This document shows positions 22,475-24,540 of a stretch of DNA of 64,000 nt, piece by piece. The stretch is taken from the NCBI RefSeq assembly GCF_949152215.1, contig NZ_OX424407.1, positions 1,058,530 to 1,122,529 of the forward strand, given 5' to 3'. How positions within the stretch are numbered: position 1 is the first letter of the stretch; every line of letters begins with the position of its first letter. Position numbers and translations under genes: made by a program. Origin of the DNA: Lancefieldella sp. Marseille-Q7238 (lineage in GTDB: Bacteria > Actinomycetota > Coriobacteriia > Coriobacteriales > Atopobiaceae). The notes beneath the pieces are model-generated. The model was not told where the DNA came from. It saw nothing but the letters and a program-made list of their open reading frames with translations, and did no database searches.

Positions 22475-23758
22475 ATGCTTGACATCAGGTTTGTTCGTGA
22501 GAATCCCGACGTTGTTGACGCCGCTTGCAAATCCCGTCAAAACGCCCATTGGGATCGCGAGAAATTCTTCAAACTCGACGGGGAGCGACGCGAAGCAATC
22601 GTTGAGGTAGAAGGATTGCAGGCCGAGCGCAATACCGTTTCCAAGCAAATCGGACAGCTTATGCGTGAAGGCAAAGCGCAGGAAGCAGAAGCGGCAAAAA
22701 AGCAGGTTGCGGCCAATAAAGAGCGCATTGCCGAGCTTGACCGCAAGCGGGATACGGTGGAGGAGGAGCTCAAGGCGCTCGTAGCCGCTATCCCCAATAT
22801 TCCCGATGAGTCGGTTCCCTACGGTGCGGACGATTCTGAAAACCCCGAGGTTCGTCGCTGGGGAGTGCCCACCGAGTTTGATTTTGAGCCGAAGGCTCAC
22901 TGGGACCTTGGCGCTGACCTCGGCGTTATTGACTTTGACCGCGGCGTCAAGCTTGCCGGCACACGCTTCTATCTTTTGAGCGGTCTGGGCGCCCGCATGG
23001 AGCGCGCGCTTATCAACTTCATGATTGATTGCCACAATGAGGCGGGGTTCAAAGAGTTTTGGCCGCCGGTCATTACTAATCACGACTCGCTTTTTGGTAC
23101 AGGCCAGCTGCCCAAGTTTGAGGACGACCTCTACCATGTGCAGCCTGACTTGTATCTTATTCCTACGGCGGAAGTGCAGCTGACCAATATTCACCGCGAT
23201 GAAATCCTGGATGGAACCAAGCTGCCCCTTTTCTATACGGCATTTACTCCATGTTTCCGTGAGGAAGCAGGATCGGCGGGCAGAGATACTCGAGGCATCA
23301 TTCGTGTTCACGAGTTTGACAAAGTTGAGATGGTCAAATTCGCCAGGCCTGAGGATTCTATGAATCAGCTTGAGTCCATGGTAGCGGAAGCCGAGAAGAT
23401 CCTTCAGCTGCTGAAGCTCCCGTATCATGTGGTGATATTGTGCACCGGCGACCTTGGATTCTCTGCGGCCAAGTGCTATGACATCGAGGTCTGGCTCCCG
23501 AGCTATAACAACTATAAAGAGATATCTTCCTGCTCCAACTGCAAAGATTTCCAGGCTCGCCGCGCTAACATCCGTTTCAAGGATTCCGCCGGCAAGAGTA
23601 CGCAGTTAGTGCATACGCTCAATGGCTCAGGCCTTGCGGTCGGTCGCACCATGGCTGCGATTCTCGAGAATTATCAGAATGCCGATGGATCTGTGACCAT
23701 TCCTGAAGCTCTCGTTCCTTATATGGGCGGCGTTGAAGCCATCCGCCCTGAAGCCTAG
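22475..23758 (+). CDS. serS: Seryl-tRNA synthetase
   Basis: Charges tRNA-Ser. The 427-aa product has the N-terminal coiled-coil arm (about 25-105), motif 2 [20 protein letters not shown] and motif 3 [24 protein letters not shown] lies eight bases before ATG. A tRNA-Ser gene lies 0.8 kb downstream. I looked for a T-box leader and found no T-box sequence or terminator. Confidence 0.96.
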
Positions 23759-23870
23759 GGTGGAGTTGCGCTGAGAGCAGCAGTTCTTGTGCTATGTGAC
23801 TCGTGTCCAAGACGATTATGTGCGGATACCGTACATCTTTTGGCACTAACCAATTTCTTTTAATTTCTAG

Positions 23871-23899
23871 TAGAACTGATGTTCTAAATATGCTAAAAT
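23871..23899 (+). promoter_or_regulatory. LexA-box-like operator and extended -10 promoter
   Basis: TAGAAC-TGAT-GTTCTA (23871-23886) is a perfect inverted repeat whose core GAAC-N4-GTTC matches the LexA (SOS) box of Gram-positive bacteria. Four bases later comes the extended -10 TGCTAAAAT (23891-23899). The operator covers the -35 position, so a bound repressor would block transcription of the gene at 23933. No lexA gene is in the window. Confidence 0.55.
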
Positions 23900-23932
23900 A
23901 GGATATGAAAAAAGCAGAGGGAGGAGAGCCAA

Positions 23933-24286
23933 ATGAAGTGCATGAACGCAGACAAAGAAGAACTTACCGTTACCGTTTCTGAGGATGGAAGTCTTACGTT
24001 TAGAGAGTATGTATCCGGCAATCCTGCTCAAGTTGGATTTGGAGAAGTTGAACATGCAACGTATCTGCTGCTGGATTCTAAAAATGCGAAGGTATTGCGG
24101 AAGGTCTTGAGTACTGAACGGCCTGAGCAACACGTCATCGATAGGTCGTTTTGGCAGACGTTTATACAAGAAGTCGAGTTTCTTTCAGATATTCTCGATA
24201 TGTGCGATGCGCATAAAATCCGCTATACCTATAAGGCTTTGGGCTCTGAAAGCAGTTATTGTCTCAGAGAGTCTTCTCAAGAGTAG
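23933..24286 (+). CDS. Small protein of unknown function, possibly SOS-controlled
   Basis: A 117-aa acidic protein; ATG follows a strong GGGAGGAGAG. No signal peptide or membrane segment is seen. The N-terminal half reads like strands (EELTVTVSEDGSLTFREYV) and the C-terminal half like helices (SFWQTFIQEVEFLSDILDMCDAHKI). I do not recognise the family. The promoter immediately upstream carries a LexA-like box, so induction by DNA damage is the best available clue. It is a single-gene unit. Confidence 0.65.
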   Translation: MKCMNADKEELTVTVSEDGSLTFREYVSGNPAQVGFGEVEHATYLLLDSKNAKVLRKVLSTERPEQHVIDRSFWQTFIQEVEFLSDILDMCDAHKIRYTYKALGSESSYCLRESSQE

Positions 24287-24360
24287 CGTGTTCGCATAGA
24301 GTACAGACAGCAGGTACAAACGTGGCTTGCAGTGTGTACGTTGGCGTGGTGCTTGAGATA

Positions 24361-24388
24361 AAAGAAAAGGGCTCACGAAGGAGCCCTT
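24361..24388 (-). terminator. Terminator after tRNA-Arg(ACG)
   Basis: Read on the minus strand, AAGGGCTC pairs with GAGCCCTT, followed by TTCTTT. Confidence 0.8.
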
Positions 24389-24397
24389 AAAATTCAA

Positions 24398-24474
24398 TGG
24401 TGCGGCGTATAGGATTCGAACCTATGACGCCCTGATTCGTAGTCAGGTCCTCTATCCAGCTGAGGTAACGCCGC
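24398..24474 (-). tRNA. tRNA-Arg(ACG)
   Basis: On the minus strand, acceptor GCGGCGT pairs with ACGCCGC. The anticodon loop CTACGAA gives ACG (A34 is normally edited to inosine by TadA). The T arm and CCA are present. Confidence 0.95.
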
Positions 24475-24540
24475 GTGCGACAAGTATCATGACAGAATTG
24501 CGCATAAAGTGCAAGAGGTTTGAGGAAAATTTTAAAGAAA

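Follow-up and report, generated by a model that had tools for sequence, protein, structure and literature searches.

A probable core SOS gene of Atopobiaceae and a second Coriobacteriales family encodes a small soluble protein behind a LexA-type operator

Background

The known SOS division inhibitors of Gram-positive bacteria, such as YneA, ChiZ, DivS and SosA, are small membrane proteins under LexA control. DinI, a small SOS protein that modulates RecA, is acidic and has an acidic helix. The gene described here encodes a protein of 117 amino acids and lies in a stretch of 64,000 nucleotides from Lancefieldella sp. Marseille-Q7238, referred to below as the window. Its likeness to the described systems is partial in each case. 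As in the LexA regulon of Gram-positive bacteria, a GAACN4GTTC-type operator lies over the core promoter, although the protein apparently controlled here belongs to no named family. With YneA, ChiZ, DivS and SosA it shares small size and putative LexA control; unlike them, its product is soluble and lacks a membrane span, and a YneA-like LysM gene is present besides. Like DinI, it is small and acidic, has an acidic helix and probably belongs to the SOS response, but it has no sequence match to DinI, and its acidic stripe, as read by eye, is not retained in the second family of bacteria that carries the gene. Finally, an operator of this type also serves rSAM_link_UDG (TIGR03916) with TIGR03915 in the own genome, but these are putative DNA-repair proteins of named families and share no sequence relationship with the 117-aa protein.

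A literature search on LexA in Coriobacteria, Actinobacteria, Collinsella, Atopobium, Eggerthella and Olsenella found no paper dedicated to the regulon. A study that maps gut SOS genes by COG (PMC3998124) contains neither the word Collinsella nor the word Coriobacter in its main text. The SOS response of Coriobacteriales would gain a deduced LexA operator and a probable core gene conserved over two families.

Results

The first-pass annotation of this locus, made from the sequence alone, had described a perfect repeat with TAGAAC and GTTCTA arms about a TGAT spacer, placed just upstream of an extended -10 element. Both features are present. The palindrome, TAGAACTGATGTTCTA, occupies 23871-23886, with the GAACN4GTTC core at 23873-23884, and an extended -10, TGCTAAAAT, can be read by eye on the forward strand at 23891-23899 (TG at 23891-23892, TAAAAT at 23894-23899). 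A 17-base spacing would put the -35 at 23871-23876, that is, within the operator. A generic sigma-70 scan of 23700-24500 reports no promoter because a good -35 hexamer is absent. A ribosome binding site, GGAGGAG, was likewise read by eye at 23920-23926 on the forward strand and is followed by the 117-aa gene, which runs on the same strand from its ATG at 23933 to 24286. The upstream neighbour on this strand is serS (22475-23758), matched to the serS of relatives, and the downstream neighbour is a tRNA-Arg (ACG) on the reverse strand (24398-24474); both positions are conserved. A stem-loop, terminator-like on the reverse strand, lies between the gene and the tRNA at 24367-24388.

A single GAACN4GTTC core is present in the window against 1.14 expected, which is chance level, so that the core by itself is no proof and comparison with relatives must decide; the full TAGAACN4GTTCTA palindrome appeared in none of 100 shuffles. 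The genome as a whole, a single contig of 1.6 Mb, contains 17 perfect cores, 13 of them within open frames of at least 150 codons, and a single genome is therefore insufficient as proof. In the case of recA (L003), the long frame at the box is only an upstream extension of the reading frame beyond its true start, and 111 bases separate the box from the RecA model match. An identical 117-aa protein is found in the record of Atopobium sp. oral taxon 199, also of the Atopobiaceae, and the host bacterium is probably oral.

The genome encodes both LexA (TIGR00498, E-value 1.7e-64) and RecA (PF00154), which allowed the comparison of operators that had been proposed for this site. Its recA operator is TCGAACGCTTGTTCCT, and several near-perfect boxes lie in the intergenic region that separates lexA from a YneA-like gene on the opposite strand. 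Across the genomes compared, a perfect box stands in the recA promoter of all 29, and the lexA promoter carries at least one box with no more than one mismatch, again in 29 of 29; the consensus of these recA and lexA boxes is ACGAACATATGTTCGT. A YneA-like LysM gene is divergent from lexA at 28 of the 29 loci. The YneA-like LysM gene at L029:2873-4171, separated from the divergent lexA by several near-perfect boxes, matches NF010723 with an E-value of 1.5e-13, below the curated cut-off of that model. A putative DNA-repair radical-SAM gene of the own genome (TIGR03916) has the box TAGAACTTATGTTCTA at its promoter, and among nine full-length TIGR03916 genes read, the LexA box is perfect in eight and has one mismatch in the ninth. 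At L265:2535-4833 (G000:C1:482770-485068), the TIGR03916 radical-SAM gene is followed by an overlapping TIGR03915 gene and has its own LexA box. The word TIGR03916 is absent from the literature searched.

Searching with the single 117-aa protein gave matches in 8 of 60 genomes, and a profile built from those eight extended the family to 114 of 140 Atopobiaceae genomes and 25 of 35 genera. Within the order, a 74-member profile matched 175 of 395 genomes, and with a single exception these belong to Atopobiaceae or to a second family (f10); a phylum-wide profile search matched 21 of 396 genomes, 20 of these in the same two families. Loci were read in all but five of the 114 matching Atopobiaceae genomes (G016, G029, G087, G104 and G161), and 19 loci were read out of the 59 matches in the second family, the latter figure being a hand count from the search listing. 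Alignment A2 comprises 74 of 88 non-redundant members; alignment A3 comprises 67 rows picked by hand as full-length. A distant relative from another family of the phylum (G628, locus L263) aligns by profile. It was left out of the family, as the 400 bases that precede the match contain no box with up to one mismatch and as it is rare among its kin, only 2 more of the 81 genomes around it giving a match. A phage or plasmid origin was considered and rejected: a tblastn search of the own protein against 50,697 phage records returned no match, and a plasmid search, with the G628 relative rather than the own protein as query, also returned none.

Identity to the window protein ranges from 14 to 56% in alignment A2. 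Nevertheless, at 110 of 111 Atopobiaceae loci the gene adjoins serS, gluQ or a tRNA-Arg-like sequence, or more than one of these, as it does at 17 of the 19 loci read in the second family. These conserved neighbours argue for orthology despite the low identity. Ratios of dN/dS fall between 0.05 and 0.27 in 11 of 12 pairs (dS is saturated in the twelfth), and the protein is therefore under purifying selection. The fixed place between serS and tRNA-Arg or tRNA-Ser, kept at 110 of 111 Atopobiaceae loci, is the one observation that suggests a LexA-controlled role outside repair and division, such as a translation- or tRNA-related response. Ancestral gene order commonly gives conserved position, however, a LexA operator of its own stands before the gene, and the opposite strand carries the tRNAs of the window; such a role appears improbable.

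Conservation of the operator was assessed in the region from -300 to +30 of the start codon at 110 loci from 109 Atopobiaceae genomes. Start codons, both here and at the further loci below, were set by a simple score, which gave only 83 and 35 amino acids at L121 and L139, where the starts are doubtful. A perfect GAACN4GTTC box is found upstream of the gene at 88 of the 110 loci, and the number rises to 109 when one mismatch is allowed, as compared with one perfect site in 317,458 positions elsewhere in the same loci and a chance expectation of 0.059 boxes with up to one mismatch per searched region. The fragmentary gene of L121 has no box even when one mismatch is allowed. At least one perfect box occurs in 22 of the 24 genera read, the two others being g17 and g31. 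Another 20 loci were read, of which 19 belong to the second family and one to Atopobiaceae; all have a perfect box, whereas their control gave one perfect site in 56,576 positions. Two or more boxes stand within 60 bases of one another at 38 of the 110 loci. The spacing from box to -10 is not uniform across loci, and for this reason no promoter geometry is claimed for the family.

In a second comparison, the training set of the scoring matrix consisted of 117 boxes from recA and lexA and included none from the 117-aa gene. With this matrix, each of the 110 regions upstream of the gene scores beyond the 99th percentile set by 738 control regions. The box of the gene outscores that of recA in 21 of 29 genomes and the best box of lexA in 16 of 28, a comparison from which the own lexA locus is absent; the own operator, at 16.2 bits, is slightly under the own recA box at 16.9. 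Of 14 profile-negative genomes taken, 12 have a full, readable serS. Nine of these 12 have no box with up to one mismatch downstream of serS, G067 and G005 each show a single poor one, and the remaining genome (G020) has a near-box, TAGAACAATTGTACGT, by its tRNA-Arg, with no recognised gene. Absence of the box thus tends to coincide with absence of the gene.

The chance-level frequency of the core in the window is what would be expected of a chance palindrome before a spurious open reading frame. We reject that explanation as having a negligible probability: gene and site are conserved, the frequency of perfect boxes far exceeds that of the controls at both sets of loci, the matrix picks the site throughout, and the dN/dS ratios reflect purifying selection. 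It is also conceivable that the palindrome serves another repressor with a similar half-site, leaving the gene outside the SOS regulon. The TAGAAC arms of the own site are unlike the CGAAC arms of many LexA boxes, and the genome has a second, weaker match to the LexA DNA-binding model. Yet recA boxes of the same genus also have TAGAAC arms (TAGAACGTCTGTTCTT, TAGAACGCTTGTTCCT), most relatives beyond the genus show CGAAC or AGAAC arms at the 117-aa gene too, and the recA/lexA matrix selects the site at all 110 loci, which makes a different repressor very improbable.

The reading of the site as a LexA-type operator, and the suggested membership of the gene in the SOS regulon, are thus supported by conservation in relatives, by the uniform presence of the box at recA and by the matrix test. 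On this comparative evidence, LexA control of the 117-aa gene is very likely, and its SOS assignment is strongly supported in silico. The gene probably forms part of the core SOS response in both the Atopobiaceae and the second Coriobacteriales family.

The protein had been described as small, soluble, acidic and without a recognised family, and this description holds. It has a net charge of -7 and a pI of 4.95, the mean net charge over 107 members of the family being -8. Its maximum 19-residue hydropathy is 0.54, while the family median is 0.97 (n = 107, with 7 of 107 above 1.6) and the YneA-like protein reaches 2.59; judged by hydropathy, the protein is soluble in this species and has no membrane anchor. 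It matches no Pfam family up to an E-value of 10 and none in NCBIfam or PHROGs, and 74 members searched against the family libraries gave only isolated weak matches to unrelated families. The Pfam models for SulA and DinI are thereby included: the own protein matches neither up to an E-value of 10, and the weak matches of the 74 members are to other, unrelated families.

Structure prediction gives a model with pLDDT 88.5 and pTM 0.80 for the own protein, and with pLDDT 97.7 and pTM 0.89 for a central relative (L048). The latter is predicted to contain strands at residues 2-11, 14-22, 28-35, 47-54, 100-105 and 109-113 and helices at 37-43, 56-67, 74-79 and 85-94, that is, one folded domain with the predicted order b-b-b-a-b-a-a-a-b-b. 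Among the 67 chosen members, G36 and D90 are conserved in all, R113 in 65, D93 in 64, D87 in 63, Y99 in 62 and E32 in 60. By-eye reading of the second family indicates that D90 is often retained there and that D87 and D93 are often lost. A profile search of the sequences of solved structures gave best E-values of 0.17 and 0.088, to unrelated proteins, and Foldseek against solved structures found nothing at an E-value of 0.001 or below (best 0.088). Second-look fold comparisons reached best Z scores of 4.9 and 5.8, the match at 5.8 having an rmsd of 2.9 over 73 aligned residues. PUR/PC4-like domains, which bind single-stranded nucleic acid, have a four-stranded sheet and a helix; that of Borrelia Pur-alpha aligns over 62 residues with Z 5.4 and rmsd 2.9, below the level of kinship. 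The XRCC4-type heads of CCDC61 and SAS-6 align over 83-89 residues with Z about 4, and XLF over 79 with Z 4.0. These XRCC4-type heads and Borrelia Pur-alpha are leads only as candidate fold relatives of the predicted domain. The fold searches gave no clear relative at all; SulA and DinI are not among the matches listed, and their absence does not count against a shared fold.

Discussion

The position of the operator, together with known LexA biology, suggests how the gene might be regulated. In the undamaged cell, LexA bound to TAGAACTGATGTTCTA would cover the -35 position and keep the promoter shut. Following DNA damage, activated RecA would promote self-cleavage of LexA, and the 117-aa cytoplasmic protein would be made. 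The protein may then adjust repair or recovery by binding a partner in the damage response, which could be single-stranded nucleic acid, a repair complex or RecA itself. Such binding is our best guess at its job, and a tentative one. The full explanation, that of a core LexA-controlled gene and a repair-adjusting action taken together, we put at roughly 0.6. An operator as strong as that of recA or stronger suggests that the protein is kept tightly off, and a box that outscores that of recA in most genomes is as expected for a tightly held effector. Against this kind of action, no solved structure is a clear match, and the acidity of the family makes plain DNA binding less likely. A further point against it is that the acidic stripe D87/D90/D93, strong in the 67 members, is often broken in the second family, as read by eye.

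The earlier suggestion of a division inhibitor finds no support, given that the product is soluble and acidic and that lexA already has a YneA-like LysM gene beside it at nearly all loci read. In a broader form, the protein might be a soluble checkpoint factor of division or replication, one that would bind FtsZ, or some other protein of either process, and hold up the cell cycle alongside the YneA-like membrane protein. SulA is a precedent for a soluble SOS division inhibitor, and LexA control, an operator that often scores above that of recA and the multiple boxes at 38 of 110 loci would all suit a protein that is kept off. Against this stand the YneA-like LysM gene divergent from lexA and the lack of a sequence match to any Pfam family, and we consider a checkpoint factor unlikely. 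Because the known inhibitors are membrane-bound and a YneA-like gene is already in place by lexA, a role with RecA, repair or nucleic acid is likelier than that of a second division inhibitor.

If the repair-adjusting reading is correct, the family could represent a new class of soluble SOS effector acting on RecA or the repair machinery, with a domain that has no clear relative among solved structures and an operator often stronger than that of recA, working beside a YneA-like inhibitor. This proposal is speculative. As the gene is small, its product soluble and confidently folded by prediction, and its place between serS and the tRNA genes solitary, laboratory follow-up should be straightforward.

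TAGAAC and GTTCTA arms occur at three sites of the own genome, namely the 117-aa gene, the promoter of the TIGR03916 gene and a gap between convergent genes. The last of these, TAGAACTAATGTTCTA at L014:1499-1514 (G000:C1:1049556-1049571), is next to a gene that, from its sequence, we take to be rlmN-like, and has no obvious target gene. Counted over the whole genome (G000), the reversed pattern CAAGNNNNCTTG is present at 95 sites, as compared with 17 for GAACNNNNGTTC.
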